Positions 46,679 through 62,519 of a stretch of DNA of 64,000 nucleotides are shown here, piece after piece. The notes under the pieces were generated by a model. It was given only the letters and a program-made list of their open reading frames with translations, was not told where the DNA came from and did not search any database. Each line of letters starts with the position of its first letter. Position 1 is the first letter of the stretch. The translations under genes were made by a program, and so were the position numbers. The stretch comes from an uncultured Nocardioides sp. (GTDB taxonomy: Bacteria; Actinomycetota; Actinomycetes; Propionibacteriales; Nocardioidaceae), in contig NZ_CANKYS010000007.1 of assembly GCF_947488025.1 (NCBI RefSeq), positions 62,001-126,000 of the forward strand, given 5' to 3'.

Positions 46679-46695
46679 CGCTGGTCGGCGGCGCC

Positions 46696-47157
46696 TCAGG
46701 CGTCGTACTCGGGGTGACCCTCGACGTCCGCGGGCCTGGCCTCGTGGCCCTCGCGGCCGCGGGTGCGACGCAGCTCCTTCATCTCCGCCTCGAAGACGTG
46801 GCGCTGCCCGTCGACGAGCTCGTCGAGGATGCGCTGGTGCAGCCGCTTGGTGCGGGCGTAGAAGCCGTCGTCGAAGGCCTCGACCATCTGGAACGACCAC
46901 ATGCCCGGGAGCGGGTTCTGCCCGAGCACCTCGCGGTCCAGGGCGTCGGCCAGCTCGCCGTGGCCGGCCTCGCGCACCAGCGCCTCCGCCTCCTCGAAGG
47001 TGGACTCGGCGCTGCCCATGAGGCGGTGGAACGCGTAGAGGTGCCCGCGCGCGTCCTCGACGTGGTCGAGCGCGGCCGAGACCTTGCCGACCGCCTCGAC
47101 GGTCTCGTCGGTGACCCCGTCGGGTCGGCGGTGCTCGGGGGCGGGCTGGTCGTCCAT
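46696..47157 (-). CDS. Hypothetical helical protein
   Basis: A 153-residue soluble protein, mostly helical by composition, with HRLMGSAESTFEEAEALV and QMVEAFDDGFYARTKRLHQR. His and Glu are abundant in helix-like spacing. It begins MDDQPAPEHRRPDG. Convergent with the LLM gene and just after the ANTAR gene on the same strand. No family recognised; function unknown. Confidence 0.65.
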   Translation of the reverse strand: MDDQPAPEHRRPDGVTDETVEAVGKVSAALDHVEDARGHLYAFHRLMGSAESTFEEAEALVREAGHGELADALDREVLGQNPLPGMWSFQMVEAFDDGFYARTKRLHQRILDELVDGQRHVFEAEMKELRRTRGREGHEARPADVEGHPEYDA

Positions 47158-47209
47158 GTTCCGAGGGTCACAGATCCTGCGCGTCAGACGCCACCTGCCA
47201 ACGGGCGGG

Positions 47210-47956
47210 TCAGTTCGCGGCGGGGTCGGCCCCGACCGGGAGGTCGCGCGTCTGGACGACCTGGGCTGCGAGGTCGCGGAGCTTGACGTTCTGCTGCGAC
47301 GACAGCCGACGCAGCACATCGAAGGCGCGGTGGTCGTCGAGGCCGTAGCGTTCCATCAGCATCCCGGTGGCCTGGCCGATCAGGGTGCGGGACTCCAGGG
47401 CCTGCGCGAGCTGCTCGTCGTGGATCGACCGCGCCAGCGTGACCGCCGCCAGCGCGGCGATGATGCGGCCCTGCTCCACGTCCTCGTCGGTGAACGCGCC
47501 CGGCGTCCTGGAGTAGACGTTGAGGGCGCCCCAGGTGCGGTCGGGCCGGGTGAAGAGACGGAAGCTGGCACTCGACCGGATGCCCAGCTCGGAGACCATC
47601 GCCCGCCCCCATGAGGGCCACCGCGGGTCGGTGGCCAGGTCGTCGACCACGACGGTCTCGTGCTCGAGGATCGCCTCGCGGCACGGACCCTCTCCCATCT
47701 CGTACTGCGCCTCGTCGAGCTGTCGCAGCCTCTCGTCGGTGGCGATGGGCGTGCCGATCCGGTCACGCTCGACGAGCGAGATGCCGACGTAGTCGCACGC
47801 GGTGAAGAACTCCGGGGTGATCTCGGCAACCCGCTGCAGGGTGTGCGGCGGATCGGCCTGGGCGCCGAGCTCGAGGACGGCGTGGGTCAGCTGACGTTCG
47901 AAGACGTCGTTGATGGGACACCTACCTGGGGTGGGGCGAGACCTCCACCGTCCCAC
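47210..47956 (-). CDS. GAF and ANTAR-domain regulator
   Basis: A GAF domain (ACDYVGISLVERDRIGTPIA, GEGPCREAI, WGALNVYSRTPGAFTDEDVE) followed by an ANTAR domain (SRTLIGQATGMLMERYGLDD, AFDVLRRLSSQQNVKLRDLA). Family-like sequence starts at NDVFERQLTHAVLELG, but no canonical start codon lies close: the nearest in-frame ones are GTG at 47956 (used) and ATG at 47992, neither with a ribosome site. AGGTAGGTG stands just before an in-frame ATC at NDVF, which could be a rare start. Divergent from the zinc dehydrogenase operon. Confidence 0.8.
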   Translation of the reverse strand: MGRWRSRPTPGRCPINDVFERQLTHAVLELGAQADPPHTLQRVAEITPEFFTACDYVGISLVERDRIGTPIATDERLRQLDEAQYEMGEGPCREAILEHETVVVDDLATDPRWPSWGRAMVSELGIRSSASFRLFTRPDRTWGALNVYSRTPGAFTDEDVEQGRIIAALAAVTLARSIHDEQLAQALESRTLIGQATGMLMERYGLDDHRAFDVLRRLSSQQNVKLRDLAAQVVQTRDLPVGADPAAN

Positions 47957-48070
47957 CGAAGCCAGGCGCCCGCAACCCGCACGGACGCGCATGGAAGGGG
48001 CCCAGCGGGGCACTGGCTGAGCACGCAAATCAGCACTCAGCACGACCGACCCGAGGAGGTCACCGGTTTC

Positions 48071-49252
48071 ATGAAGGCAGTCACGTGGCAGGGCAAGCAG
48101 GACATGCAGGTCAAGGAGGTCCCGGACGCGGTCATCGAGGAGCGCACGGACGTCGTCATCGAGGTCACCTCGACCGGGCTGTGCGGGTCCGACCTGCACC
48201 TCTACGACCCGCTGACGCCCTTCATGGCCGCGGGCGACATCGTCGGCCACGAGCCGATGGGCGTCGTGCGCGAGGTCGGCTCGGCCGTGACCACCCTGGC
48301 GCCCGGCGACCGCGTCGTGGTGCCCTTCAACATCAGCTGCGGCACCTGCTGGATGTGCACGCGCGGCCTCCACAGCCAGTGCGAGACCACCCAGAACACC
48401 GACACCGGCACGGGCGCCAGCCTCTTCGGCTACAGCAAGCTCTACGGCCAGGTGCCCGGCGGGCAGGCCGAGCTGCTGCGAGTGCCGTTCGGCGACACCC
48501 TCCCGATCAAGGTGCCGCACGGTCCGACCGACGACCGCTTCCTGTTCCTCTCCGACGTGCTGCCCACCGCGTGGCAGGCCGTGGAGTACGCCGACGTCGA
48601 GGAGGGCGGCACGCTCGCGGTCGTCGGCTCCGGCCCGATCGGCGACATGGCGGCCCGGATCGCGCTCCACCGCGGCCTCCGGGTCATCGTCGTCGACTCC
48701 GTGCGCGAGCGGCTCGCCCGCGTCCACGGCCGCGGCGCCGAGACGATCGACTTCACCGAGGTGGACGGCGTCGGCGACGCCGTACGCCAGCTGACCGACG
48801 GCCGCGGCGCCGACGCCGTGATCGACGCCGTCGGCATGGAGGCGCACGGCTCGCCCGTCGCGGAGACCGCTCAGAAGGCGCTCGGCCTGCTCCCCAAGAA
48901 GGTGCAGGAGAAGGTGATGCTCAACTTCGGCGTCGACCGGCTCGCCGCCCTGATGAGCTGCATCGACAGCGTCCGCCGCGGTGGCACCATCAGCATCTCG
49001 GGCGTCTACGGCGCCCCCACCGACCCGCTGCCGATGTTCCAGCTGTTCGACAAGCAGGTGCAGGTGCGGATGGGCCAGGCCAACGTCCGGCGCTGGAGCG
49101 ACGACATCCTCGCGCTCCTCCAGCAGGAGGAGGACGTGCTGGGCGTCGAGTCGTTCGCCACGCACCACCTGCCCCTCGACGACGCCCCCGAGGCCTACCG
49201 CAAGTTCCGCGACAAGGAGGACGGCATGGTCAAGGTGGTGTTCCAGCCGTGA
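48071..49252 (+). CDS. Zinc-dependent alcohol dehydrogenase (formaldehyde-dehydrogenase-like)
   Basis: A 393-residue medium-chain zinc enzyme. Catalytic-zinc residues in TGLCGSDLHLYD and IVGHEPMGVV, structural-zinc cysteines in NISCGTCWMCTRGLHSQC, and the NAD loop AVVGSGPIGDMAARIAL are present. It resembles the glutathione-independent formaldehyde dehydrogenase branch. GAGGAGGT lies ten bases before the ATG. The stop overlaps the next start, so it is co-translated with the diiron and CDGSH proteins. Confidence 0.9.
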   Translation: MKAVTWQGKQDMQVKEVPDAVIEERTDVVIEVTSTGLCGSDLHLYDPLTPFMAAGDIVGHEPMGVVREVGSAVTTLAPGDRVVVPFNISCGTCWMCTRGLHSQCETTQNTDTGTGASLFGYSKLYGQVPGGQAELLRVPFGDTLPIKVPHGPTDDRFLFLSDVLPTAWQAVEYADVEEGGTLAVVGSGPIGDMAARIALHRGLRVIVVDSVRERLARVHGRGAETIDFTEVDGVGDAVRQLTDGRGADAVIDAVGMEAHGSPVAETAQKALGLLPKKVQEKVMLNFGVDRLAALMSCIDSVRRGGTISISGVYGAPTDPLPMFQLFDKQVQVRMGQANVRRWSDDILALLQQEEDVLGVESFATHHLPLDDAPEAYRKFRDKEDGMVKVVFQP

Positions 49253-50211
49253 GACTGCCCAAGCCGCGCGGCGGGCTGAGCGAGTGGCTCGTCGCCCGGC
49301 TGGGCGAGCCGGGGCTGACCGGCTCGGCGCCCGGCGCGGACTCGTGGGACGACGAGTCGATCTCGCTCTGGACGCTGCACGAGCTGTCGTTCCGCGGCTT
49401 CGAGGACGCCGACGACCGCGCCGAGTGGGACCCCGACCTCCTCGGCGTGCGCCGCGACCTCGAGACGGCCCTCGAGGAGCGGCTGCGCGCGCGGTGGTCG
49501 GCATCGGACGCCTCGGCCGCGGCCGCACCGTCGCCGGCGGAGGTGCCCTCGGCGCTCGAGGCGATCGTCGCCGCGGACGACGGCCCGTCGCTCGCCGACC
49601 GCGTGCGCCGGCATGCCGACCGCGACCAGGTGCTGGAGCTGCTGCGCCAGCGCTCGGTCTACCACCTCAAGGAGTCCGACCCGTCGGCCTTCGTCGTCCC
49701 GCGCCTGCCGGTGCGGGCCAAGGCGGCGCTGATGGCGCTGCAGTTCGACGAGTACGGCGACGGCGACCCCAACCGGCTCCACTCCCACCTCTTCGCGCGC
49801 GGCCTCGAGGCCGTCGGCCTGCGGGCGGAGTACGGCGCCTACGTCGACGACGCGATCCCCGAGAACCTCGAGATGAACAACGCCGGCTCCCTCCTCGGCC
49901 TGCACCGTCGGCTCCGCGGTGCGGCGATGGGGCACCTGGCGGCCTTCGAGATGACCAGCTCGCTGCCCTCGCGCAAGATGGTGCAGGGGCTCGAGCGGCT
50001 CGGTCTCGACGGTCCGATGTCGGCCTACTACGACGAGCACGTCGAGGCCGACGCGATCCACGAGCACCTCGCCGCCCGCGACATCTGCGGGACCCTCGCC
50101 GAGGACGAGCCCGACCAGGCGGTCGAGATCCTCTTCGGCGCCTGGACCTGCCTCGACGTCGAGGCCCGCTTCGCGACCGCGATGCTCGGGGTGTGGGAGG
50201 AGCAGTCGTGA
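49249..50211 (+). CDS. Haem-oxygenase-like iron-containing redox protein
   Basis: A 320-residue protein of the iron-containing redox (Haem_oxygenas2-like) family: LQFDEYGDGDPNRLHSHLFA, NNAGSLLGLHRRLRGAAMGH, FEMTSSLPSRKM and YYDEHVEADAIHEH carry the Glu/His ligands expected of a diiron site. The first 100 residues form a family-specific extension (WTLHELSFRGFED). GTG start overlapping the dehydrogenase stop; the next gene, a CDGSH protein, also overlaps. The reaction is not established for most of this family. Confidence 0.85.
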   Translation: MRLPKPRGGLSEWLVARLGEPGLTGSAPGADSWDDESISLWTLHELSFRGFEDADDRAEWDPDLLGVRRDLETALEERLRARWSASDASAAAAPSPAEVPSALEAIVAADDGPSLADRVRRHADRDQVLELLRQRSVYHLKESDPSAFVVPRLPVRAKAALMALQFDEYGDGDPNRLHSHLFARGLEAVGLRAEYGAYVDDAIPENLEMNNAGSLLGLHRRLRGAAMGHLAAFEMTSSLPSRKMVQGLERLGLDGPMSAYYDEHVEADAIHEHLAARDICGTLAEDEPDQAVEILFGAWTCLDVEARFATAMLGVWEEQS

Positions 50212-50411
50212 GCGATGATCACCCCGACTTCGACCACCCCGACGTCGTGCTCGTCCCGCACGGCCCGATGCTGCTGCGCGGCGCCGAGTCGGTCCAGGAC
50301 CTCGAGGGCACGGTCCACGCCGTCGACCGCCCCGTGGTGGCCCTCTGCCGCTGCGAGAAGTCCAGCCGCCTCCCCTGGTGCGACGGGACCCACAAGGTCA
50401 TCCCGCGCTGA
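50208..50411 (+). CDS. CDGSH iron-sulfur domain protein
   Basis: A 67-residue protein with a complete CDGSH cluster site: CRCEKSSRLPWCDGTH holds the three Cys and one His that bind a 2Fe-2S cluster. No membrane anchor. GTG start overlaps the upstream diiron-protein stop by four bases. Adjacent, coupled genes suggest it donates electrons to, or receives them from, that protein; this is inference. Confidence 0.87.
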   Translation: MSDDHPDFDHPDVVLVPHGPMLLRGAESVQDLEGTVHAVDRPVVALCRCEKSSRLPWCDGTHKVIPR

Positions 50412-50470
50412 GTCGTCTCCCGCCGCGCGTGTCCCGGCCGTCGGACGCCGACCCGCCCCATCGGCGGTGG

Positions 50471-50588
50471 GTGAGGCAGGTTTCGCACCTCGAGAACCTG
50501 CGTCACGCACCGCTCGCCAACGGACCGCTGGTGCGGCGGTGAGTGAGGCAGGTTCCCCAGCTCCAGAACCTGCGTCACGCACCGCTCG
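50471..50588. repeat. Two tandem 46-base hairpin repeats
   Basis: Copies at 50471-50516 and 50543-50588 (72-base period) start GTGAGGCAGGTT and end AACCTGCGTCACGCACCGCT. Each folds into GTGAGGCAGGTT / AACCTGCGTCAC (one mismatch) around a 12-base loop that differs between copies while the stems are identical. Located between the convergent CDGSH and methyltransferase ends; may terminate both. Confidence 0.75.
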
Positions 50589-50597
50589 ACGGCAGCG

Positions 50598-51215
50598 TCA
50601 GGCGCGGTCGATCCGGGCGAGCACCCCACGCACCTGCTGGCGCACCTCGACCATCGCGAGCCGTCCCTCGGTGAAGCAGGGCTCGCCGCGCAGGGCGTCG
50701 GTCTGGGCGCGGGTGCCCACCTGGAGCACGGCCGAGCCGCCGGGGGCGAGGTGCTCGTCGACGACGGCGAGGCAGGCGCGGGCGACGTCGAGGCCGTCGT
50801 CGCCGCCGTCGATCGCGGTGAGCGGGTCCTCGGGGAAGCGACCGGTCTCCTCGCGCGGCACCCACGGCGGGTCGGCGATGATCACCGGGAACAGCTCGCC
50901 GGGCTCGAGCGCGTCCTGCAGCCGGCCCTCGCGCACCTCGACCCGGTCGGCCATCCCGGCGGCCAGCGCGTTGGCGCGGGCGTAGTCGCAAGCGACGGGG
51001 TTGGCGTCGACGCAGAGCAGGTGGCGCTCCGACGACGCGACGGCGAGGAGGCCGATGTGGCCGGCGCCCGCGCAGAGCTCGAGCACCGTGCCGTCCGGCG
51101 CGGTGGCGAGCAGGTCGGCCGCCCAGTCGGACTGCGCGGCCGTCCACTCGCGCGGGCGCAGCACGCGGTCGTCGAAGGCGATCGTGAGGGACCCGAAGGT
51201 CAGCTGGTCGGTCAT
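50598..51215 (-). CDS. HemK-like class I methyltransferase
   Basis: A 205-residue SAM-dependent methyltransferase. Motif I TVLELCAGAGHIGLLAVA, acidic strand LLCVDANPVACDYARANALA and the (D/N)PP(Y/W) motif ADPPWVP, typical of N-methyltransferases acting on amino groups of proteins or nucleic acids. AAGGA lies seven bases before the ATG. Last gene of the seven-gene operon; the start overlaps the FAD enzyme's stop. In this setting it may methylate the pathway product instead. Confidence 0.83.
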   Translation of the reverse strand: MTDQLTFGSLTIAFDDRVLRPREWTAAQSDWAADLLATAPDGTVLELCAGAGHIGLLAVASSERHLLCVDANPVACDYARANALAAGMADRVEVREGRLQDALEPGELFPVIIADPPWVPREETGRFPEDPLTAIDGGDDGLDVARACLAVVDEHLAPGGSAVLQVGTRAQTDALRGEPCFTEGRLAMVEVRQQVRGVLARIDRA

Positions 51216-52801
51216 CGGCGGATCCTTCGGTTCCAGAGGGCGGCGCGGGCGGCGTTGGCGCCGGCCGCACCGTGGACGCCGCCACCGGGGTGGGCGGAGG
51301 CGGAGGCGAGGTAGAGACCGGGAAGCCCGGTCGTGGCCCGGCCGCGCATGGCCGGGACGGGGCGGAAGACCAGCTCCTGGTGCAGCTGGGAGGTGCCGCC
51401 GTTGACGGCGCCGCCGACGAGGTTGGCGTTGCGCGCCTCGAGCTCGTGCGGGCCGAGCACCCGGCGCTCGAGGACGAGCTCGCCGAAGCCCGGCGCGCGA
51501 GCCTCGATGCGCGCCTGCATCCGGTCGGCGAAGCGTTGCGTGTCGTCGTGGTCCCACGCGCCCGTGACCTCGTCCGCGGCGTCGCGGCGGGTCTTCCCCG
51601 GCTGGGGGACGTGCGTGTAGGCCCAGAACGACTCGGTGCCGGCGGGCGACCGGGTCGGGTCGCTGGTCGTCATCTGGCCGGTCAGCAGGAACGGTCGGTC
51701 CGGCACGACCCCCGACGAGACCTGGGCCAGCGTCTGGGTCATCTCCTCCACGGAGTCGGCGACGTGGACGGTGCCGGGTGCCTGCTCGGGCCGGTTGGTC
51801 CACGGCACGGGCCCGGAGAGCGCCCAGTCGACCTTGACGGTGCCGGGGTCCAGCTCGAAGTCGCGCATGCCGCGCACCAGTCGCGCGGGCAGGTGCTCCT
51901 CGGCGACCAGGCGGCCGAAGAGGTGGGTGGCCGACACGTCGGCGAGCACGGCGCGGGTGGCGTACGACTGCCCGTCACGGGTGCGTACGCCGACCACGCG
52001 GCCGTCGCGGACGTCGACGGCGGTCACCTCGGCGTCGGTCACCAGCTCGACGCCGAGGCTCGTGGCGCGGGTGACGAGCGCCTGGGTGAGCTGCTGGGCG
52101 CCACCGCGGGGGACGGGGAACCCGACGGTCTGGCCGAGCATCGTCATCAGCACGCCGAAGACGCCGGAGCCGGGGGAGGAGAGCGGGAAGTCGGCGTGGC
52201 CGGCGTTGCCGCTGAGCAGCAGCTGCGCGGCGGGCCCGGCGAAGAGCTCGCGGCCCAGGGAGGCGACCGGTGTCGCCAGCCGTCGCACGGTGTCGAGGCC
52301 GCCGGCGCGGGCCATCGCGGGCACCAGCCGGGCTCCCGCGCGCACGGGCGGGAAGGGCGAGGTGAGCCCGTCGACCAGTGCCGGGCCGATGCGGTCCCAG
52401 GCGCCGCACAGCTCCAGCCAGGCGTCCCCGTCGCCGGCCCGGAGCGCGTCGAGGCCGGCCGCGGTGTCGTGGCGGTCGCGGTGCAGGACGGCCCACTGGC
52501 CGTCGCCGAAGGGGTGGCCGAGCACCGCCGGTGCGTGCTCCCAGGTCAGTCCGTGGTCCTCCAGCCGGAGGTCGGTCATCGCGCGCGAGGCCACGGCCAG
52601 CGGGTAGAACGCGCTGAAGGTGTCGTGCACGAAGTCGGGGCGCACCTCGCGGTCGCTGCGGACCGCGCCGCCCGGCGTGGCCTGTGCCTCGAGCACCAGC
52701 ACCCGCCAGCCGGCGTCGGCGAGCACGTTGGCGGCGACCAGCCCGTTGGGTCCGGCCCCCACCACGACGGCGTCGTACGCGCCCGTGGACGCGGCGCTCA
52801 C
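51212..52801 (-). CDS. Phytoene-dehydrogenase-like FAD oxidoreductase
   Basis: A 529-residue COG1233-type flavoprotein: AVVVGAGPNGLVAANVLADA near residue 10 binds FAD, LEAQATPGGAVRSD follows, PRGGAQQLTQALVTRATSLG is the conserved central motif, and the C-terminus has LYLASASAHPGGGVHGAAGA. Relatives desaturate or isomerise polyenes; others are of unknown use. GTG start in a 4-base overlap with the SRPBCC gene. It is the only clear redox enzyme of the glycosyltransferase operon. Confidence 0.85.
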   Translation of the reverse strand: MSAASTGAYDAVVVGAGPNGLVAANVLADAGWRVLVLEAQATPGGAVRSDREVRPDFVHDTFSAFYPLAVASRAMTDLRLEDHGLTWEHAPAVLGHPFGDGQWAVLHRDRHDTAAGLDALRAGDGDAWLELCGAWDRIGPALVDGLTSPFPPVRAGARLVPAMARAGGLDTVRRLATPVASLGRELFAGPAAQLLLSGNAGHADFPLSSPGSGVFGVLMTMLGQTVGFPVPRGGAQQLTQALVTRATSLGVELVTDAEVTAVDVRDGRVVGVRTRDGQSYATRAVLADVSATHLFGRLVAEEHLPARLVRGMRDFELDPGTVKVDWALSGPVPWTNRPEQAPGTVHVADSVEEMTQTLAQVSSGVVPDRPFLLTGQMTTSDPTRSPAGTESFWAYTHVPQPGKTRRDAADEVTGAWDHDDTQRFADRMQARIEARAPGFGELVLERRVLGPHELEARNANLVGGAVNGGTSQLHQELVFRPVPAMRGRATTGLPGLYLASASAHPGGGVHGAAGANAARAALWNRRIRR

Positions 52802-53235
52802 CGCGTCCGGCCCTCCACCACGAAGGCCAGTCGCTGCAGGGCCTCGACGTTGCGCCAGTGCAGCTGGGCGTCGCGCAGGGGCTTGGGCACCAGCACGCCG
52901 GGGCCGGCGGTGGCGTCCTCGACCATGGTGACCAGGGTCGCGTCGCCGTCGGGGCGCAGCGAGATCTCGACGTGCGCCTCTCCGGCCGGCCAGCCGCGGG
53001 CCTTGAGCAGCAGCCGCCGTCCCTCGTCGACCTCGAGCACCTCGGTGGTGTCGTCGATCAGCACCGGCCAGCTGCCGACGCTGTGGTGCAGCCTGCTCCC
53101 GACGGCGGGCCACGAGTCGTCGACCTCGCGCATCCGCGACGCGCCGACGACGAAGAGGGGGTAGAGCCACCCGTCGGACAGGACCTCCCAGACCTGCTCG
53201 GGGGTGGCGGACACGGTGCGGGTCGTCGTGCTCAT
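52798..53235 (-). CDS. SRPBCC-family protein
   Basis: A 145-residue helix-grip (START-like) protein: TRTVSATPEQVWEVLSDGWL, SWPAVGSRLHHSVGSWP and WPAGEAHVEISLRPDGDATL. It could bind a hydrophobic intermediate or act as a cyclase/aromatase. Coupled by 4-base overlaps to the GT2 gene upstream and the FAD oxidoreductase downstream, which suggests that the operon handles a hydrophobic aglycone. Confidence 0.82.
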   Translation of the reverse strand: MSTTTRTVSATPEQVWEVLSDGWLYPLFVVGASRMREVDDSWPAVGSRLHHSVGSWPVLIDDTTEVLEVDEGRRLLLKARGWPAGEAHVEISLRPDGDATLVTMVEDATAGPGVLVPKPLRDAQLHWRNVEALQRLAFVVEGRTR

Positions 53236-54089
53236 GGTGTCGTCTCCTTGACGCTGATCGAGGGTGTCTCGCGGATCCAGTGCCCATCCTCTCGCCGCAC
53301 CAGTCCCCGGCGCTCGAACTCCTCCAGCCACCCGGTCATCGGCCACTCGCCCCAGCGCTCGTGGAAGAGCCGGCCGTTGCGGAGGATGTCGTCGAGGTGC
53401 TCGACCGGGGGGCTGCTCACCGGGTGGTGCTGGTGGTAGGCGCGGGCGCCGCCGACCCAGCCGAGGCCGATGCCGCGGGCGATCGCCGTACGACCCAGGT
53501 CGGTGTCCTCGCCGCCGTAGCCGACGTAGTCCTCGCAGAAGCCGCCGAGGCGGTCCCACGTGCGCGGGCCCACGGCGAAGGAGAGCGACCAGAAGAGGTC
53601 GGGGTTGTCGGACTGCAGCAGCTCGCCGGGCGCCGGGGCCGGTCGTGCGGGGTGCGGGTCGTCCCAGCCGGCGAGGGCGGCGGGGTCGGCGGGGTAGCCG
53701 TCGGGCGGGCGGGGCGGGAGGTAGGTCACCGGACCCGACCAGATGCGGTGCGGTCGCGTGGTGACGACATTGGCGTACGACGCCACGAGCCCGGCCCCGG
53801 CCAGGCAGTCGACGTCGAGGAGCACGACGACGTCGGCACCCGTGTCGAGCGCCGTCTCGACCCCGAGGTTGCGCGCGGCGGCGAGCGGCAGGCCGCCCCG
53901 GGGGCCGCGGCCGACGGCGACGACGTCGCGCGCGAGTCCGTCCACCTCCTCCGCGACGATGTCCGGGTCGTCCATGGCGACCGCGAGGTAGGTGTCGGGG
54001 CGCATCGCACCGCGGGCGAGCGAGCGGTGCTGGGCGGCCAGGTGCTCGTGACGGCCGTGCGCGATCGTGACGACGGCGACCCGGGTCAC
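53232..54089 (-). CDS. GT2-type glycosyltransferase with galactosyltransferase C-domain
   Basis: A 285-residue GT-A enzyme: VAVVTIAHGRHEHLAAQHRS at the N-terminus, DVDCLA as the metal-binding DxD-like motif, and GGFCEDYVGYGGEDTDLGRT, which resembles the Glyco_transf_7C acceptor/catalytic motif. Uses a nucleotide sugar; sugar and acceptor unknown. GTG start, overlapping the stop of the next upstream glycosyltransferase. Confidence 0.83.
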   Translation of the reverse strand: MTRVAVVTIAHGRHEHLAAQHRSLARGAMRPDTYLAVAMDDPDIVAEEVDGLARDVVAVGRGPRGGLPLAAARNLGVETALDTGADVVVLLDVDCLAGAGLVASYANVVTTRPHRIWSGPVTYLPPRPPDGYPADPAALAGWDDPHPARPAPAPGELLQSDNPDLFWSLSFAVGPRTWDRLGGFCEDYVGYGGEDTDLGRTAIARGIGLGWVGGARAYHQHHPVSSPPVEHLDDILRNGRLFHERWGEWPMTGWLEEFERRGLVRREDGHWIRETPSISVKETTP

Positions 54090-55129
54090 GGCGTGGGCCT
54101 CGCGCTCACGCGGTCACGGGTGGCGAGCACGACGTCGGCGAAGCGGTCGGCCGCCCAGCCGTCGCACCACTGGGTCCAGGGGCGTGGGTCGAGGGCAGCG
54201 GCCCGGTCGAGCACGTCGCTCCACTCGCCGGCCTCGGGCCAGGCGGTGCGCACCACGGCCGGCCAGCCGTGGGCCAGCACCTCGCCGGTCGCGCGCTGCT
54301 CGTCGTGGGGCCTGGCCTGCGGCAGCACGACGGCGGGGCGCCGCGCGGCTGCGGTCTCGGCGAGCGCGTTCTGCCCGGCGTGGGTGACGACGACGTCGGC
54401 CCCGGCCAGCACGGCGGACGGGTCGTCGACCCACGTGCCGCGGTCGGCGCCCAGGACGTGCCACCGCCACTCGGGGGTGGCCCCCCGCGCGAGGCGTACG
54501 TCGTCTGCGCTGACGTCGTGGCCGCCCGAGCCGAGCATGAGGGCGACGGTGCGCTCGCGACCGTGCGAGCGGGTGCGCAGCGCGGGCCGCACCGGGTGAC
54601 GCGACAGGGCGCCGACCGGCACCAGCCGGTCACGGAGGTCGTCTGGCAGCCCGGGTGTCATGTCCCCCGCGGTGCGCGGCCAGAACCCGACGAGCGCCTC
54701 GGCGACCCCGAACCCGAGGAGGTGGGCGCGGTCGTCGCGGCGCCCGGGGAGGACCACCCCGATCGCGGGCACGCCGTGGAGGCGGGCGAGCAGGAGCACC
54801 TCGACCGAGACGTCGACGACGACCAGGTCCGGTCGCGCGGACTCCAGCCAGGCGCTGAGCGCCGCGGCGCGGGACCGGGTGCCGTCGTGGAGCAGGGGGG
54901 CCCAGTGGAGGTGTCCGTCGGCGGTGACGTCCCGGGGGTCGCCGTCGTCGTCCGGGGGCAGCCGGACCCAGTCGCCGACCCACCCGTCGGGTCGCGGCAG
55001 CGACGACAGGCCGGTGACCGCGATGCCCTCGCGCCGCAGCCGGGCGGCGAGCACCCCGGCGCGGTGGCGGTGACCGCTGCCGACGTGGTGGACGTAGTAG
55101 CCGATGGTCGCCGTCTCGTCGCGGGTCAC
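54086..55129 (-). CDS. GT-B glycosyltransferase (MurG/GT28-like)
   Basis: A 347-residue GT-B enzyme. The N-domain has IGYYVHHVGSGHRHRAGVLA, the usual glycine-rich start of MurG/GT28-like members, and the C-domain has LGSGGHDVS and VLAGADVVVTHAGQNALAET, the nucleotide-sugar-binding hairpin. GTG start with a 4-base overlap on each side. The acceptor is not known; location in the cytoplasm or at the membrane face is typical. Confidence 0.8.
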   Translation of the reverse strand: MTRDETATIGYYVHHVGSGHRHRAGVLAARLRREGIAVTGLSSLPRPDGWVGDWVRLPPDDDGDPRDVTADGHLHWAPLLHDGTRSRAAALSAWLESARPDLVVVDVSVEVLLLARLHGVPAIGVVLPGRRDDRAHLLGFGVAEALVGFWPRTAGDMTPGLPDDLRDRLVPVGALSRHPVRPALRTRSHGRERTVALMLGSGGHDVSADDVRLARGATPEWRWHVLGADRGTWVDDPSAVLAGADVVVTHAGQNALAETAAARRPAVVLPQARPHDEQRATGEVLAHGWPAVVRTAWPEAGEWSDVLDRAAALDPRPWTQWCDGWAADRFADVVLATRDRVSARPTP

Positions 55130-56193
55130 GCCGCGTGGTCCTGGCGGGTCATCTCGGCGTAGAGGTCGAGGTAGCCCTCGACCATCGCGTCCGCGCTGCA
55201 CGTGGACTCCGCATAGGCACGGACGCCGCGACGGTCGAGCCGGGCCGCGGCCACGACGGCGTCGGCGAGGGCGGCCGCGTCGCCGGGTGCGGCGAGCACG
55301 CCGCCCTGCGGCGAGACGACCTGGCTGAGACCACCGCGGGCGAAGGTCGCGACGGGGGTGCCGCTGGCCATCGCCTCGGCGGCGACGAGGCCGTAGGGCT
55401 CGTCCCACATGGGCGTCACCACCGCCACCGACGCCTGGCGCAGCAGCTGGGACAGCTCGCGCTGCGCGAGGTGACCGGCGTACATCGCGTCGACGCCGAG
55501 CAGCGGGGCGACCGCGCGGTCGAAGTAGGCCTGGTCCTGCACGGGACCGGCCAGCACCAGCGGCACCCCGGCGAGCCGGCAGGCCTCGACGGCGAGGTGG
55601 GGTGCCTTCTCCGGCACGATGCGGCCCGACCACACGGCCGGTCCGCCGCCCGGACCGGCGGGCCAGTCGCGCAGGTCGAGCCCGTTGAGCACGACGTCGC
55701 TGTCCACCGCGTGGCGCCACGCGGTCGACGTCCACTCGCTCACCGCGACGAAGCGCGGCGGGCGCGAGCACAGCGCCACCGCCGACTCGATCATCGGCAG
55801 CGGAGGGGTGTGGAGCGTCGTGAGCATCGGTACGTCGACGGCCGGCGCCATGGCGATGGGCAGGTGGTGGAGGCTGTTGTTGTGCACGACGTCGTACTCC
55901 TCGGCGCCGGTACGGGCGAGGGAGAGCATCAGGGAGAGGTAGGCGTGGTGCTCGGCCAGCCAGCCGGGCCCGGGCGCGAACTTGTCGGCCATCGCGGCGG
56001 AGCTGACCTCGACGGTCGACAGCGGGAGCAGCCGCACCGGCAGCGAGGTGTCGGACCCCGGTCCGGCGAAGAGCGTGACGTCGTGGCCGCGCTCGGCGAG
56101 ACCGCGGGCGGTCGTCCAGGTCATCGACTCCAGACCGCCGGCGAAGGGCTCTCGGATCGGGAAGCGGCTCGAGGCGATGAGGCAGATCCTCAC
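55126..56193 (-). CDS. GT4-type glycosyltransferase
   Basis: A 355-residue GT-B enzyme: ASSRFPIREPFAGGLESMTW in the N-domain (acceptor side), VWSGRIVPEKAPHLAVEACR at the domain hinge, and VTPMWDEPYGLVAAEAMASG with the E-x7-E motif of GT4. GTG start. One of two GT4-like enzymes at the head of the operon. Confidence 0.88.
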   Translation of the reverse strand: MRICLIASSRFPIREPFAGGLESMTWTTARGLAERGHDVTLFAGPGSDTSLPVRLLPLSTVEVSSAAMADKFAPGPGWLAEHHAYLSLMLSLARTGAEEYDVVHNNSLHHLPIAMAPAVDVPMLTTLHTPPLPMIESAVALCSRPPRFVAVSEWTSTAWRHAVDSDVVLNGLDLRDWPAGPGGGPAVWSGRIVPEKAPHLAVEACRLAGVPLVLAGPVQDQAYFDRAVAPLLGVDAMYAGHLAQRELSQLLRQASVAVVTPMWDEPYGLVAAEAMASGTPVATFARGGLSQVVSPQGGVLAAPGDAAALADAVVAAARLDRRGVRAYAESTCSADAMVEGYLDLYAEMTRQDHAA

Positions 56194-57329
56194 CGTCGGA
56201 CCACCGACTCGTAGACCGCCGCGTGTGCGTCGGCGACCTGCGCGCGCTGGCGGCGCCGGTCGTCCACGCTCGGCGGCGCAGCGACGTGACCGGCGTGCGC
56301 CTCGCGCAGTGCGGCCACCAGGCTGTCGGCGTCGAGGTGGTCCTCGTCGTGCTCGTAGGTCAGCACCGGCGCCTGGTCGGCGAAGTAGCCGCACGAGGGC
56401 GCGACGACGGCGGTGCCGAGGTCGCGACAGGCCTCCAGCCAGCCACTGTGGGTGCCGAAGCGGTAGGGCAGCACCGACACGTCGAGGGAGGCCAGGTAGG
56501 CCCACAGGCCGTCGTCGTCGAGGAAGTCGTGGACGTGCAGGTCGAGCTCGCCCGCGGCGGCGTGCGCCTGCAGGGCCTCGGCGAGCGCGGCGTCGTACCC
56601 CGCCCCCTCGGGGAGCAGCACGTCGCGGTGCCCGTTGACCTGCAGCACGGCGCCCGGCAGGTCGCGGACCGCGTCGACGAGCACGGGGATGAGCGCGTGC
56701 GGGTTCATGCCGGCACGCAGGCTCTTGACGTGCATGCCGATGCGGAACTCGCGCTCGCGCGGTCCCCGCCTGCGGACGTCGCGCATCGCGGCGACGCGGC
56801 GCATCACGTCGAGGGGTACGACGTGGGGGTGCGGCACGACCACGGCATCGCGTCCCCAGCGGGCCCGGATCTCTGCTGCGGCGCCCGGCGTCAGCGTGAT
56901 GATGGCGTCGGCGGCCGGCACCAGCACGTCGAGGTGCCGGTCGTGGGCCTCGCGGTCGAGGTGGTGCGGGTTGCGCAGGTCGTGGACGGTGAAGACGAGC
57001 GGCTTGCCGCGTCGGCGCAGCGCCGCGACGAGCTCCTCGAGGTCGGCGGGGCTGCGGGCGTCGAAGCCGAAGTGCAGGTGGAAGACGTCGAAGTCGTGGG
57101 TCTCGACCCAGGTGGCGTCGAGCATGACCGGGGGCCACCACTGCTGCGTCGTCGCCGCACCCGGCGGCGTCGGGTCGGGCAGGCGCACCGGCCCCGAACC
57201 GTCCTCGGGCGCGAGGTGGCGGACGTACACGTGGTTGGCGGGAACCGAGGCGATGACGAGGCGCCCGGTCCGGGGGCGCGGCACGGGCAGCGCCGCGGGC
57301 GCGTCCGTGGTCATGTCGGAGGTGGTCAC
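56190..57329 (-). CDS. GT4-like glycosyltransferase
   Basis: A 379-residue GT-B enzyme, first gene of the seven-gene operon. FDVFHLHFGFDARSPADLEE and PLVFTVHDLRNPHHLDREAH are the acceptor-domain strands; VSVLPYRFGTHSGWLEACRD replaces the usual E-x7-E loop of GT4 members. The product starts at a GTG; an ATG five codons later (MTTDAPAA) is an alternative. No strong ribosome site is visible for either. Confidence 0.82.
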   Translation of the reverse strand: MTTSDMTTDAPAALPVPRPRTGRLVIASVPANHVYVRHLAPEDGSGPVRLPDPTPPGAATTQQWWPPVMLDATWVETHDFDVFHLHFGFDARSPADLEELVAALRRRGKPLVFTVHDLRNPHHLDREAHDRHLDVLVPAADAIITLTPGAAAEIRARWGRDAVVVPHPHVVPLDVMRRVAAMRDVRRRGPREREFRIGMHVKSLRAGMNPHALIPVLVDAVRDLPGAVLQVNGHRDVLLPEGAGYDAALAEALQAHAAAGELDLHVHDFLDDDGLWAYLASLDVSVLPYRFGTHSGWLEACRDLGTAVVAPSCGYFADQAPVLTYEHDEDHLDADSLVAALREAHAGHVAAPPSVDDRRRQRAQVADAHAAVYESVVRR

Positions 57330-57389
57330 GCGCAGAGGTACCCGTGCGACCGGGGGTCATGCACGTGCGAGGCCAGGAGGCGACGAACT

Positions 57390-57405
57390 ACCTCCTATGG
57401 GAGGT
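57390..57405. promoter_or_regulatory. Inverted repeat in the divergent promoter region
   Basis: ACCTCC-TATG-GGAGGT, a perfect 6-base-pair inverted repeat, between the start of the glycosyltransferase operon and the promoter of the ANTAR gene. Possible operator, or a hairpin presenting a GGAGG-like sequence. Confidence 0.4.
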
Positions 57406-57411
57406 GTCGCG

Positions 57412-57441
57412 TTGAGTCACGGCCAGCGGGGACGATAAATT
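57412..57441 (+). promoter_or_regulatory. Candidate promoter of the GAF/ANTAR gene
   Basis: TTGAGT (57412-57417), 18 bases, TAAATT (57436-57441), fitting TTGAC/TANNNT; about 50 bases before the proposed TTG start. Confidence 0.4.
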
Positions 57442-57494
57442 CCGTCCAGGCTCCAGAAGACGGGTCTCAGGCGTACGTCCTTCAAGGATCCTCA

Positions 57495-58193
57495 TTGTCA
57501 TCCCATGACTCCTTGGCCGTGTTCGCGGCACTCGCAGCGGAGCTGCAGCAGGAGCCTGACGAGGCCGTCACCTCGCGCGCGATCGTCACCCGGATGCGCG
57601 ACCTGGTCCCCGAGGCCGACCAGGTCAGCCTCACGATCCGCACGTCCCGCGGCCATCGCACGCTGGCCAGCAGCGACCCGCTCGCCCGGGAGGCCGACGC
57701 ACTGCAGTACGCCCTGGGCGAGGGGCCCTGCCTCGAGATCGCCGACACCGGCGGCTGGCTGCGCAGCGGCGACGTCGGCGCCGACACGCGCTACCCCGCC
57801 TGGGGACCGCGCGCCTCCGAGCTGGGCGTGGGGTCGCTCCTCGCCGTCGCGGTGACCGACCGTGACGAGCCCCTCGGGGCCCTCAACCTCTACAGCACCC
57901 GCACGGGCGCGTTCGACGACCGCGACGTCGTCGACCTCGCCCTCGTGTACGCCGTCCACGCCACGACGGCGCTGTCGTCGGCCCGCCACGTCAGCACGCT
58001 GCAGACCGCGATCAGCTCCCGGCACGTCATCGGCATGGCGCAGGGCATCGCGATGGAGCGCTACGGCATCGACCAGCACCAGAGCTTCGAGCTGCTGCGC
58101 CGGCTCTCCTCCACCACCAACGTCAAGCTGCGCGACGTGGCCACGCAGATCGTGGAGACGCGGACCATCCCGCACGAGCGGGTGGACGACTGA
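57495..58193 (+). CDS. GAF and ANTAR-domain regulator
   Basis: A 232-residue GAF (GEGPCLEIADTGGWLRSGDV, GALNLYSTRTGAFDDRDVVD) plus ANTAR (SRHVIGMAQGIAMERYGIDQ, FELLRRLSSTTNVKLRDVAT) protein, close in layout to that at 47210. No ATG or GTG is near the family start; a TTG with AAGGA exactly six bases before it is the best start. It is convergent with the next GAF/ANTAR gene. Probably an RNA-binding antiterminator responding to a small ligand. Confidence 0.82.
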   Translation: MSSHDSLAVFAALAAELQQEPDEAVTSRAIVTRMRDLVPEADQVSLTIRTSRGHRTLASSDPLAREADALQYALGEGPCLEIADTGGWLRSGDVGADTRYPAWGPRASELGVGSLLAVAVTDRDEPLGALNLYSTRTGAFDDRDVVDLALVYAVHATTALSSARHVSTLQTAISSRHVIGMAQGIAMERYGIDQHQSFELLRRLSSTTNVKLRDVATQIVETRTIPHERVDD

Positions 58194-58203
58194 CGCGGGC
58201 GCG

Positions 58204-58914
58204 TCAGGCCGGCAGGGAGCCGGTGTCGAGGACGTGCTCGGAGATGACCCCGATCTTGGTGCGTCGACTGCGCGCGGCCGTGCGCAGCGCGTTGAAGGCG
58301 CCGACGGCGTCCAGCCCGTGCTTGGCCATCAGGAAGCCGACGGCCCGCTCGATGAGCACGCGGTAGTCGAGGGCGTACTGCAGCTGTCGGGCGAGCTCGC
58401 CGGCCGTGTGGGCCTGCAAGGCGGCGCCGAGGGTGGTGGAGATGATCTCGGCGTAGCGCCCGATCGCGGCCTGCTCGCTCTCGTCCCAGTCGTGGGGTTC
58501 GCTCTTGTAGACGTCGAGGGTGCCGACCGGCACGCCTCCGAGGAGCACCGGCGTGCCCAGCACGGCGCGCACCGGTTGCTCGGCCATCGCCCGGGCCAGG
58601 GTCGGCCAGCGGTCGGCCTCGGCGGTCACGTCGCGGCTCGTCACCACGCGCGCCTGGACGAACGCCTCGGTGCACGGGCCCTCGCCGGCCTCCGCCTCGG
58701 TCTGCTCGAGCAGCCGGCCCGGGCCGTCGCTGGCGGCGGCGTAGACCAGGATGTCCTGCTCGTCGGCGATCAGCACGCCCGCGCCGTCCACGCCGAACAG
58801 GTCGACGCAGGCGGTGACCACGACGTGGAGGGCCGAGGTGATGCTGCCGTCGTCGTCCCGCGGCTGGGACAGCCGGCGCAGGCTCTCGGCGAGGGCGGCG
58901 TCATCGATGTTCAT
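58204..58914 (-). CDS. GAF and ANTAR-domain regulator
   Basis: A 236-residue protein. GAF half: CVDLFGVDGAGVLIADEQDI, GEGPCTEAFVQARVVTS, VGTLDVYKSEPHDWDESEQA; ANTAR half: YRVLIERAVGFLMAKHGLDA, AFNALRTAARSRRTKIGVIS. Starts with an ATG eight bases after the stop of the small ANTAR gene and is likely co-transcribed with it. Sensing and RNA-binding roles are inferred from the fold. Confidence 0.82.
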   Translation of the reverse strand: MNIDDAALAESLRRLSQPRDDDGSITSALHVVVTACVDLFGVDGAGVLIADEQDILVYAAASDGPGRLLEQTEAEAGEGPCTEAFVQARVVTSRDVTAEADRWPTLARAMAEQPVRAVLGTPVLLGGVPVGTLDVYKSEPHDWDESEQAAIGRYAEIISTTLGAALQAHTAGELARQLQYALDYRVLIERAVGFLMAKHGLDAVGAFNALRTAARSRRTKIGVISEHVLDTGSLPA

Positions 58915-58922
58915 GCGCCGGA

Positions 58923-59258
58923 TTATCCCTGAGCCGTCGGTCCTCCCGGCCAGCCGGACGCAGGGAGGTGTCCGACGAACCTCGCCAGCGCCTCGTGGTC
59001 GTCCGCGTCCGCAGTGCCGTCGTGGGTCGCCACGAGGACGCGCGCGACGATGCGGACCTTGGTGTTGCTGTCCTGCGAGACGCGCAGCATCGTGCGCCAG
59101 GCCTGGTCGGTGCTGCAGTCGAAACGGGCCGACAGCAGACCGATGGCCATGCCGATGTCGCGTTGCGACCGCACGGCCTCGTGCAGCTGGGCGACCTCGT
59201 CGCGCAGCGCATCGCCCTGAGGGGCGGGATCGCCCGAGGAAAGGGGTGTGGCAGACAT
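58923..59258 (-). CDS. Small ANTAR-domain protein
   Basis: A 111-residue protein consisting mainly of one ANTAR domain: QRDIGMAIGLLSARFDCSTD and AWRTMLRVSQDSNTKVRIVA. There is no sensory domain, only a short N-tail and a His/Gly-rich C-tail. AGAGG sits five bases before the chosen ATG; another ATG five codons earlier overlaps this ribosome site. Upstream member of a two-gene minus-strand operon with the GAF/ANTAR gene. Confidence 0.78.
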   Translation of the reverse strand: MSATPLSSGDPAPQGDALRDEVAQLHEAVRSQRDIGMAIGLLSARFDCSTDQAWRTMLRVSQDSNTKVRIVARVLVATHDGTADADDHEALARFVGHLPASGWPGGPTAQG

Positions 59259-59377
59259 CGTCACCTCTTGCATGACGTAGGTCCGCGGACACAGGGCGGA
59301 GTTGAACTGGAAGCAAGTTCCACCCTACAGGCTGGGCCCGTCACCTCCGAACGGGCGGAACGTCCGCATCTGGGTTA

Positions 59378-59392
59378 GAGTCGATGCGACTC
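59378..59392. promoter_or_regulatory. Palindrome at the AraC-gene promoter
   Basis: GAGTCG-ATG-CGACTC, perfect 6-base inverted repeat that overlaps a TAGAGT -10-like element (59376-59381). Possible autoregulatory site. Confidence 0.45.
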
Positions 59393-59433
59393 AAGCCGCC
59401 GGGTCGTCCGCACGCTCCTCAGGAGGTGCTCAG

Positions 59434-60405
59434 ATGCCCGACCGGGTTTCCCGACGCGAGTCCCCTGACGCCTTCGACTTCGACGGCGACGGCGACGCGG
59501 CCCGCGACTGGCTGGAGACGGCGTACGGCACCGCGCTGGGGCTGGACGGTCGGATGGGCGCGGTGCACCACCGGCGGCGCGAGCGCGGGGGCGTGTCGTT
59601 CGACCGGCTGCGCATCGACGAGTCCGTCAGCTTCGACGCCGAGCCGATGCCGCTGCTCGTGGTCGTCGACGTGCTGAGCGGCGAGATCGAGTACTCCCGC
59701 GGCTCCGTCACCGACCGCGGTCGCGCAGGCGACACGCTCCTCGCGGCCGGGTGGGGGATGGCGTTCTCCGGGGGTGGCAACGGCTACGACGTCCGCAACA
59801 CCAGCGTCTCGCTCGAGGTGCTGAGCGCCGCGATCGCCGACATCGACCCCGACAAGACGAGCGACGACCTCCGGTTCAGCAGCTTCACGCCCCGTTCGCC
59901 GGCCGCGGCCGCGCAGTGGCGCGCGGTGGTCGACCGGCTCGGCGTCTCGCCGGAGGGCAGCGACCGCCCGGTCGGGCAGGGCGACGCGTCCCGCCTCCTG
60001 GCGCACAGCCTCCTGCAGACCTTCGCCAACAACGTGGTGGGGGACGACCGCGGGGCCGTCCGCGACGCCCGCGACGCCACCCAGGCCGTCGTACGCCTCG
60101 CGCAGCGCATCATCGCCGAGCGGGCCGGTGACGACCTGACGATGTCCGACATCGCCCGGGAGTGCCACGTCACGCCTCGTGCCCTGCAGTACGCCTTCCG
60201 GCGCCACCTCGACTGCACCCCGCACGCCTACCTCCGCCAGGTCCGCCTCGACCTCGTGCACCAGGTCCTGCGCGACGGCTCCGTGCCCACCGTGGGCGAC
60301 GCGGCCGCCCGCTTCGGCTTCTTCAACCCCGGTCGCTTCGCGACCGAGTACCGCCAGGTCTTCGGCGAGAACCCTGGACAGACCTTGTCGCACGGCTCGC
60401 CCTGA
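59434..60405 (+). CDS. AraC-family transcriptional regulator
   Basis: A 323-residue regulator. The C-terminal pair of helix-turn-helices is clear: LTMSDIARECHVTPRALQYA, FRRHLDCTPHAYLRQVRLDL and DAAARFGFFNPGRFATEYRQ, VFGENPGQ. The N-terminal half is an AraC-binding-like domain (VVDVLSGEIEYSRGSVTDRG). A strong AGGAGGTG ribosome site stands five bases before the ATG. A sigma-factor gene follows 110 bases downstream. The effector is unknown. Confidence 0.88.
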   Translation: MPDRVSRRESPDAFDFDGDGDAARDWLETAYGTALGLDGRMGAVHHRRRERGGVSFDRLRIDESVSFDAEPMPLLVVVDVLSGEIEYSRGSVTDRGRAGDTLLAAGWGMAFSGGGNGYDVRNTSVSLEVLSAAIADIDPDKTSDDLRFSSFTPRSPAAAAQWRAVVDRLGVSPEGSDRPVGQGDASRLLAHSLLQTFANNVVGDDRGAVRDARDATQAVVRLAQRIIAERAGDDLTMSDIARECHVTPRALQYAFRRHLDCTPHAYLRQVRLDLVHQVLRDGSVPTVGDAAARFGFFNPGRFATEYRQVFGENPGQTLSHGSP

Positions 60406-60434
60406 CGGGTGCGTTCGCATTGCGGCTGTCGTAC

Positions 60435-60446
60435 TGGTCCAGACCA
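60435..60446. promoter_or_regulatory. Short palindrome upstream of the sigma-factor gene
   Basis: TGGTC-CA-GACCA in the 110-base gap before the sigma factor. Possible operator; no clear promoter seen. Confidence 0.3.
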
Positions 60447-60515
60447 TGCGACTGTGGTGGTTGATCGTCTTGCTGGAGACCACGGCAGACGCCATCAACA
60501 CCCAGGAAGCGAGCC

Positions 60516-61355
60516 GTGGATTCCATGTCGATCGCCCCTGCACTGCCTGCTGGACTCAACCCTGTCCGGCTCCGTCCCGCCCAGCCCCTCGAGGGTCGGG
60601 CACGTGCCCGTCGCACCGACGCCATCGTCAGCGACCTCCGCGACGTCCGCCGCCAGGCCGACGCCCACGAGCTGACCCGTCAGCTCATCGAGACCAATGC
60701 GGCCGTGGCCCGCAGCATGGCCTCCCGCTACCGCAACCGCGGCATCGACCTCGACGACCTCGAGCAGGTCGCGCTGCTCGGCCTCACCAAGGCCGCACAG
60801 CGCTTCGACCCTGCCGCGGGCCACGACTTCCTGTCGTTCGCCGTGCCCACCATCCGCGGTGAGCTGCGCCGGCACTTCCGTGACTCGGGCTGGATGGTCC
60901 GCCCGCCTCGTCGGGTGCAGGACCTGCAGACCCGCATCGCCGGCGCGCAGGAGGAGCTCGAGCCGCGGCTCGGCCGCTCACCCCGCCCCAGCGAGCTCGC
61001 CGCCCACCTCGGTGAGGACACCTCCGACGTGGTGGAGGCGCTCGCCGCCGACGGGTGCTTCACGCCCACCTCGCTGGACGCACCGGTGGCCGACGGCTCG
61101 TCGTCGATCGGCGACCTGCTGGGCGGGGAGGACCGGGCCCTGGCGCAGACCGAGGCCAAGGTCATTCTCGACCCGCTGATGCGCGGCCTCACGGCGCGCG
61201 ACCGTCGGATCCTGCAGCTGCGCTTCTTCCAGGAGCAGACGCAGCAGGAGATCGCGGAGTCCGTCGGGCTGACGCAGGCCCAGGTGTCGCGGGTCCTGAC
61301 GCGGATCCTCGCCGACATGCGGGTCGGTCTGGTCGACCGACACGTGGCCGCCTGA
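60516..61355 (+). CDS. RNA polymerase sigma factor, SigB/SigF type
   Basis: A 279-residue group 3 sigma factor. Region 2: [40 protein letters not shown] and [19 protein letters not shown]; region 3 [15 protein letters not shown]; region 4 [20 protein letters not shown] and [18 protein letters not shown]. Actinobacterial members direct stress or stationary-phase genes. AGGAAG is six bases before the GTG start; an ATG three codons later is too far from it. No anti-sigma kinase gene adjoins it here, unusual for the family. Confidence 0.9.
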
Positions 61356-61395
61356 GTCCCGAGGGCTCTGGGGGTCGCCGTGCCACCATGGCGCG

Positions 61396-62409: not shown

Positions 62410-62442
62410 GCGCTGGCCCCCTGCTTGCACGACGTACGCCGG

Positions 62443-62497: not shown

Positions 62498-62519
62498 GTG
62501 AGGCCCGGGCCCGCCGAGC

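Follow-up and report, generated by a model that had tools for sequence, protein, structure and literature searches.

A seven-gene Nocardioides operon combines a conserved four-glycosyltransferase unit with separately distributed redox and methyltransferase genes

The window analysed here is a 64,000-nucleotide stretch of DNA from an uncultured Nocardioides sp. (assembly GCF_947488025.1, contig NZ_CANKYS010000007.1, positions 62,001 to 126,000 of the forward strand), and its subject is an operon of seven genes, here called g1 to g7 in the order of transcription (Table 1). The operon is a patchwork, since g1-g4, g5-g6 and g7 have separate distributions among related genomes. A gene caller based on codon usage, with training on g1-g7 followed by a second round on the full window, gave identical starts and stops for all seven genes, which confirms the open reading frames (ORFs) listed in a first-pass annotation of this DNA. 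Each of the six junctions is a 4-base overlap, as had also been reported, with the sequences GTGA, GTGA, GTGA, ATGA, GTGA and ATGA in order. No RNA family was found at gathering thresholds in positions 47000-62500 of the window.

Table 1. The operon, its putative promoter and neighbouring features (positions in the window).
Feature	Position	Strand	Description
g1	56190..57329	-	ORF; GT4-like GT-B glycosyltransferase
g2	55126..56193	-	ORF; GT4 glycosyltransferase (Pfam)
g3	54086..55129	-	ORF; GT-B glycosyltransferase, GT1/GT28 (OleD/MurG) type
g4	53232..54089	-	ORF; GT2/GT7C-like glycosyltransferase
g5	52798..53235	-	ORF; SRPBCC (Polyketide_cyc2) protein
g6	51212..52801	-	ORF; CrtO/CrtI-like flavin adenine dinucleotide (FAD) oxidoreductase, partner of g5
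g7	50598..51215	-	ORF; HemK/PrmC-like S-adenosylmethionine methyltransferase, conserved ADPPWV
Promoter-like site	57338..57362	-	GCATG-N14-GGGTAC, SigB/SigF type; ends 8 bases before the g1 GTG
SigB/F/G-family sigma gene	60525..61355	+	TIGR02980, 232.1 bits (cut-off 234.35, marginally under); 3 kb from the operon
Zn alcohol dehydrogenase	48071-49252	+	Convergent neighbour operon
Iron-containing redox enzyme	49249-50211	+	PF14518; convergent neighbour operon
CDGSH protein	50208-50411	+	Convergent neighbour operon

Related loci were collected by a g4 scan of GTDB species genomes, which gave 172 relatives; the best 80 loci were retained, a set biased towards holders of g4 and towards Nocardioides. 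Besides Nocardioides, these loci came from Mycobacterium, Rhodococcus, Nocardia, Williamsia, Gordonia, Streptomyces, Kitasatospora, Pseudonocardia, Rothia, Nesterenkonia, Janibacter, Arsenicicoccus and Herbiconiux, among others. Distributions were counted in two genome samples, 118 genomes spread over the class and 61 from the family, several of them drafts in which the distance between genes on different contigs is undefined. The class sample was searched with g4 at E 1e-30, g3 and g1 at E 1e-15 and g6 at E 1e-120. The p-values given throughout ignore relatedness, and several of the tests were picked after the data were seen. Across the 80 related loci the 4-base overlap was the commonest junction type, joining 358 of 986 same-strand adjacent pairs, and it joins 19 of the 43 such pairs in the window; as an ordinary junction type, it was dropped as a sign of unusual coupling. 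Six specified 4-base junctions in series at the background rate have a p of about 0.002, uncorrected for the number of operons that could have been inspected. Ten other loci carry the same seven genes, and 57 of their 60 junctions are exactly 4 bases. The overlaps support a single transcript with coupled translation, in agreement with the first-pass annotation.

The product of g1 matched Glyco_transf_4 of Pfam (34.1 bits, cut-off 28.5) and no NCBIfam model up to E 0.1. Its AlphaFold2 model, built from 45 sequences (predicted local distance difference test score, pLDDT, 91.9), has a GT-B fold and matches BshA, MshA, GlgM and glycogen synthase with template modelling (TM) scores of 0.4-0.6 at 11-20% identity. 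In the EX7E motif of classical GT4 enzymes the first glutamate sits eight residues before the second. E299 of g1, at the position of the second glutamate, is invariant, and the first is replaced by F291, a phenylalanine found in at least 90% of the 45 sequences; measured against a retaining GT4 enzyme, g1 has the fold and lacks the complete motif. A clear Pfam assignment to GT4 was obtained for g2. The third protein, g3, matched Glyco_tran_28_C (24.2 bits, cut-off 22), and its model (pLDDT 94.7) is closest to the GT1 macrolide glycosyltransferases OleD, YjiC and CalG and to MurG. Scores for g4 fell under the cut-offs of both Glyco_transf_7C (21.6 against 23) and Glyco_tranf_2_2 (20 against 27.3), and chondroitin synthase was matched weakly (E 0.0007); its LDVDC and GYGGEDTD stretches are conserved, and several of its relatives are named 'galactosyltransferase-related protein' in PLSDB records. 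The domain content given in the first-pass annotation was broadly right, except that g1, g2 and g3 are all GT-B types and the four transferases do not have four different folds.

An SRPBCC identity for g5 is given by PF10604 (40.4 bits, gathering score 27.4). FAD oxidoreductase similarity extends over the full length of g6, for which the nearest described family is CrtO (NF045689, 191.2 bits, cut-off 1000) and the second CrtI (TIGR02734, 105.1 bits, cut-off 238.1); judged by these scores it is a member of neither. The g7 protein scored 85.9 bits with TIGR03534 (cut-off 199.1) and 66.5 bits with TIGR00536 (cut-off 115.5), resembling PrmC/HemK without reaching either cut-off, and its ADPPWV motif speaks for a planar nitrogen, not a sugar hydroxyl, as the methylated group. 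No synthase for an aglycone is encoded within the operon, as had been noted before.

All four of g1-g4 were found by tblastn (E 1e-20) in 67 of the 80 loci. They are contiguous in the order g1-g2-g3-g4 in at least 61 loci and in the order g2-g3-g4-g1 in at least three, and g2 lies between g1 and g3 in 61; these contiguity counts are lower bounds, because several loci are truncated or miscalled, the gene caller having overlooked g1 or g4 or put it in the wrong place in cases such as L027 and L085. Within the class sample, g1, g3 and g4 occur in an identical set of 11 of the 118 genomes and in no others. Because the genome sets are identical and the genes are contiguous across loci, we conclude that g1-g4 form one tight glycosyltransferase unit, and the earlier view that the four transferases belong together is upheld. 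In some Nocardioides, and in many of the mycobacteria and rhodococci, genes for three more proteins neighbour this unit: a WcbI-like enzyme (cluster 14, in 19 of the 80 loci), a GT4 glycosyltransferase (cluster 11, in 21) and a GT2 glycosyltransferase (cluster 8, in 23). Cluster labels were taken from one representative per cluster. The WcbI-like gene was detected at E 1e-20 in two of the 118 class genomes, both among the 11 with g1, g3 and g4, and had no match in the window's own genome at that threshold. One genome (G044) has g1 on a separate contig from g2-g4, yet has kept it, adjoining a WcbI-like gene; there (L131:8192-12910) the two genes lie beside a phytoene-synthase/CrtI pair.

The distribution of g6 is a different one. 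A match to it (E 1e-60) was present in 51 of the 61 family genomes and a strong match (E 2.1e-123 or better) in 41, as against 15 genomes with g4; strong matches occurred in 11 of the 15 genomes with g4 and in 30 of the 46 without (p=0.40). Among the 118 class genomes g6 was found in 37, seven of them belonging to the 11 with g4 and 30 lacking it, so that no single distribution covers the seven genes (11 genomes for g1, g3 and g4, 37 for g6, an overlap of seven). Thirty g6 loci, one of them the window, were taken from family genomes. Among the 29 others, g5 stands directly beside g6 in 12, of which 10 are in genomes without g4; another 10 have a cluster-18 gene, labelled SDR by eye, beside g6; and seven have neither, some of these being truncated or having g6 uncalled. 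The methyltransferase gene g7 was also found apart from both g1-g4 and g5-g6 in the gene islands around g4. Thus g5-g6 is a separate and commoner conserved pair and g7 a separate module, and the claim of the first-pass annotation that all seven genes serve one coherent glycoside pathway was not borne out. The conserved order that it had asked for in other genomes does exist: all seven genes are in order in 10 of the 80 loci besides the window, all in one Nocardioides clade whose g4 proteins are as little as about 71% identical. A tree built from 47 g6 proteins requires that g6 was united with g4 twice, once in this Nocardioides clade and once in Streptomyces typhae and S. aureocirculatus. The SRPBCC protein of the Streptomyces pair belongs to PF10604 and is only about 32% like g5; by this tree, the union of an SRPBCC-g6 pair with g4 in Streptomyces was an independent event.

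A promoter-like site lies just upstream of g1. When ten clade members were aligned on GGGTAC, the GCATG columns carried 1.3-1.5 bits, as against 0-1.1 bits in the spacer, and the upstream columns carried 0.1-0.8 bits with one at 1.3; the GGGTAC columns have 2 bits by construction, the alignment having been registered on them, and the L020 site, whose downstream sequence differs, may be another site. In the window's clade the site thus fits the SigB/SigF-type pattern of a GNNT-like -35 box and a -10 GGGTA at 12-16 nucleotides, the boxes being kept while the spacer drifts. GGGTA[CT] precedes g1 in 10 of 11 clade members and precedes a LuxR-type gene in 10 of 10. Promoters described for the Streptomyces coelicolor SigB homologues include SCO0566p, GCATAA-N14-GGGTAT (PMC8346170), and those described for SigF of Mycobacterium smegmatis have a -10 of GGGTA (PMC6448022). 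The window site therefore shares its -10, a G-type -35 and its spacing with the general stress regulons of mycobacteria and streptomycetes; its GCATG is unlike the -35 of M. smegmatis SigF, which is mostly GTTT-like in the account of PMC4694148, and unlike that of Actinoplanes sigma-H, likewise GTTT-like (PMC11205660). A group 2 glycosyltransferase gene, MSMEG_1097, is listed as SigF-dependent in M. smegmatis (PMC4694148). Judged by its boxes, the site probably places the operon under a stress sigma factor of SigB/SigF type.

Stress genes recur around g4. The position directly after g4 holds a catalase gene in L060 and L134 (genome G098), an alcohol dehydrogenase gene in L076, a cluster-18 gene in L054, g7 alone in L028 and an isochorismatase gene in L026, among other genes; in 22 of the 80 loci the next gene is on the opposite strand. 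Around g4, 25 of the 80 loci have an alcohol dehydrogenase gene of one cluster, 21 have a gene for the iron-containing redox enzyme, 20 have a SigB-type sigma gene of the same cluster as that in the window, 15 encode a CDGSH protein and 10 encode catalase. It looks as though in these islands different stress genes come under one promoter.

Homologues of the unit were also found outside the Actinomycetota, in six sphingomonad plasmid records with g2, five of which were examined (L155 and L162-L165). All five contain one run of genes in the order g2, a glycosyltransferase, g3, an ACAD-like protein, a PIG-L deacetylase, a NodS-like methyltransferase and g4, and four of the runs have an adjoining catalase gene, which lies upstream with the orientation of the run in L155, L164 and L165 and is divergent in L163. 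Hidden Markov models (HMMs) from the actinobacterial sets detected g2, g3 and g4 in all five records and in a Sulfitobacter plasmid, and detected no g1 in any of these six (E 1e-15); no g6 was found by HMM in the five sphingomonad runs, nor is any gene annotated like g5 or g7 within them. Identities in Sphingobium RAC03 are 47% for g2, 36% for g3 and 42% for g4. The name 'ACAD-like' (acyl-CoA-dehydrogenase-like) comes from record names of the sphingomonad homologue (30% identity over 295 aa), and no match in Pfam or PDB was obtained for the actinobacterial representative. The record of Sphingobium xenophagum plasmid p1 (L162:10015-11063) splits the g3 homologue into two annotated pieces, the run being otherwise complete.

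The window's own genome contains counterparts of the additional sphingomonad genes on contig C15 (L130 2039-5132), where an ACAD-like gene, a fusion of PIG-L and NodS-like methyltransferase domains and a GT2 gene overlap in a triad that is homologous to the sphingomonad genes at 30-52% over parts. The sphingomonad runs thus share both g2-g4 and homologues of this triad with the window's genome; in the sphingomonads the triad genes are linked to g2-g4, whereas in the window's genome they are on a separate contig. The fusion was found at E 1e-40 in three of the 118 class genomes, including the window's, and all three are within the 11 that have g1, g3 and g4 (hypergeometric 0.0006, phylogeny ignored); in G137 two of the three triad genes lie beside the core. 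Decoration of Nod factors uses the NodB deacetylase and the NodS N-methyltransferase. The runs resemble it, by analogy only, in combining a deacetylase, a NodS-like methyltransferase and glycosyltransferases; they differ in that the deacetylase is of the PIG-L family and that NodA and NodC are unannotated in the runs examined, and the fusion protein of L048 reached 66.8 with the NodS model (cut-off 300). EcfG promoters were considered as drivers of the sphingomonad runs and rejected for want of any in the nine regions before catalase or g2; strict matches occur elsewhere in L155, L163 and L165. A mobilizable plasmid of Acinetobacter johnsonii (L159) carries triad homologues and a glycosyltransferase gene together with catalase, DUF421, an iron-containing redox enzyme and the otsBA trehalose genes.

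The reading that we favour, with moderate confidence, is that of a composite stress operon, in which the g1-g4 glycoconjugate unit is co-regulated with the biochemically separate g5-g6 and g7. A SigB/SigF-type holoenzyme would start a leaderless or near-leaderless mRNA at the GTG of g1, all seven genes would be translated in a coupled manner, and the cytosolic product of g1-g4 would be a short oligosaccharide or glycoside assembled by successive sugar transfers. The C15 triad, acting in trans, would probably deacetylate, N-methylate and extend an amino-sugar part of the g1-g4 product, a role suggested because of the PIG-L and NodS-like chemistry. The g5-g6 pair and the g7 methyltransferase would act independently, sharing stress regulation and timing with g1-g4 and not its pathway. 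No export or polymerase gene was recognised among the recurrent neighbours of g1-g4, the flanks of which are only partly annotated, and we therefore lean towards a small glycoside or glycolipid over a capsule. A wider proposal, which we put forward tentatively, is that g2-g3-g4 (with g1 in actinobacteria) and the triad make an unnamed stress glycoconjugate that Actinomycetota and Alphaproteobacteria share. It would be an oligosaccharide whose amino sugar is deacetylated and N-methylated, produced alongside catalase for general protection against stress, and in the window it would have been tied into a single operon with a redox pair. We found no description of the gene set or of its regulation in the literature, judged by titles and abstract openings, which agrees with the earlier statement that no named pathway has this set. 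The interest of the locus lies in the old and uncharacterised g1-g4 unit and its cross-phylum partners. If the composite reading is right, a widespread glycosylation unit has been separated from passengers that masked its function, its likely partners in the same genome have been named, and the stress-linked hypothesis is testable; a glycoconjugate conserved in two phyla beside catalase would, if true, be a new class of stress protectant.

Several results weigh against this reading or some part of it. At the class level g6 is somewhat enriched in genomes with the core (7 of 11, against 30 of 107; p=0.02), and g6 and g4 lie within 25 kb of each other in three of the 13 other genomes that have both (p=0.0005 for random placement). 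This enrichment and proximity leave room for some functional link of g6 to g1-g4, and the 57 of 60 four-base junctions kept in the ten fused relatives fit either view. Outside the window's clade GGGTA[CT] is not enriched before g1 (9 of 53, against a background of 78 of 683; p=0.16), and SigB-type regulation across all loci was rejected on that account. The pattern GCATGN{11,15}GGGTAC has 10 sites in the window's own genome against 12 for a control, and so marks no regulon by itself. As to the triad, the fusion is missing at E 1e-40 from eight of the 11 genomes with the core, and no GGGTA box was found upstream of the triad on C15. Some match to the fusion was found in 94 plasmid records, many of them to the methyltransferase half only, and 23 records cover at least 80% of the query; the three examined, L159 (Acinetobacter), L160 (Pandoraea) and L161 (Kitasatospora), have triad sets without g2-g4. 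No EcfG-type promoter was found in the nine regions before catalase or g2 in the sphingomonad runs.

The alternative that survives best, which we still consider unlikely, is a single seven-step pathway in which g6 oxidises and g7 methylates an aglycone bound or carried by g5 and g1-g4 glycosylate it. Such a pathway would account for the seven coupled genes that the window and the ten Nocardioides loci have in the same order, for the two independent unions of an SRPBCC-g6 pair with g4, for the placement of g7 alone directly after g4 in L028 and for the proximity of g6 to g4 in three of 13 genomes. It is difficult to reconcile with the presence of g6 in 30 of the 107 class genomes, and of a strong g6 match in 30 of the 46 family genomes, that lack g4, with the 54 of 80 g4 loci that have no match to g5, g6 or g7 (E 1e-20, up to about 10 kb on each side), or with the catalase and alcohol dehydrogenase genes that occupy the same slot after g4.

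Rather less probable again is that the locus is a hotspot only, where accessory stress genes gather in the same islands without a function in common and only g1-g4 make up a functional operon. The recurrent mixed company of catalase, alcohol dehydrogenase, iron-containing redox enzyme, CDGSH and SigB-type genes in varied orders is what such a hotspot would produce; we weighed it slightly lower because 57 of 60 exact couplings, together with the fused order, have been kept through a clade in which g4 has diverged to about 71% identity.

A glycosylated carotenoid or polyene, with g6 as a ketolase or desaturase and g1-g4 adding the sugars, is the least probable of the three. CrtO is the closest described family of g6 (191 bits), and contig C2 of the window's own genome carries a cluster of phytoene synthase and CrtI. 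A gene matching PF00494, a family that covers squalene synthases too, was present in 35 of 37 genomes with g6 and in 62 of 81 without (p=0.013, phylogeny ignored), and because of this enrichment the alternative was weighed slightly higher. The g1 and WcbI-like genes of G044 adjoin phytoene synthase and CrtI, G054 and G137 each have a phytoene-synthase-like gene at a distance of 10-14 kb from the core, and in G029 (L142), the sole such arrangement noticed, g6 and a cluster-18 gene are directly beside phytoene synthase and CrtI. With G029 as the exception, g6 differs from the CrtO and CrtI families in standing beside SRPBCC or SDR-type genes, not crt genes, in most loci. It appears improbable that g6 works on a carotenoid here, since its scores are far under the family cut-offs (191 of 1000 and 105 of 238), five probes found no phytoene-synthase-like gene in the ORFs called at the 80 g4 loci, PF00494 was not matched in two genomes with g6, G074 (72% complete) and G106, and g1-g4 occur without g6 in four of the 11 class genomes.

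Beyond the composite operon, the three genes of the convergent neighbour operon successively overlap by 4 bases, and its members recur in other Nocardioides islands. Genes for GAF/ANTAR and LuxR-type regulators are present on both flanks of the operon (44325-48000 and 57519-59150 of the window), the GAF-ANTAR assignment having been made by Pfam for 58204-58914 and by eye for 57519-58193. An F420-dependent glucose-6-phosphate dehydrogenase is encoded at 61396-62409 (TIGR03554, 526.7 bits, cut-off 420), and a second F420-dependent enzyme (LLM) at 45719-46678.

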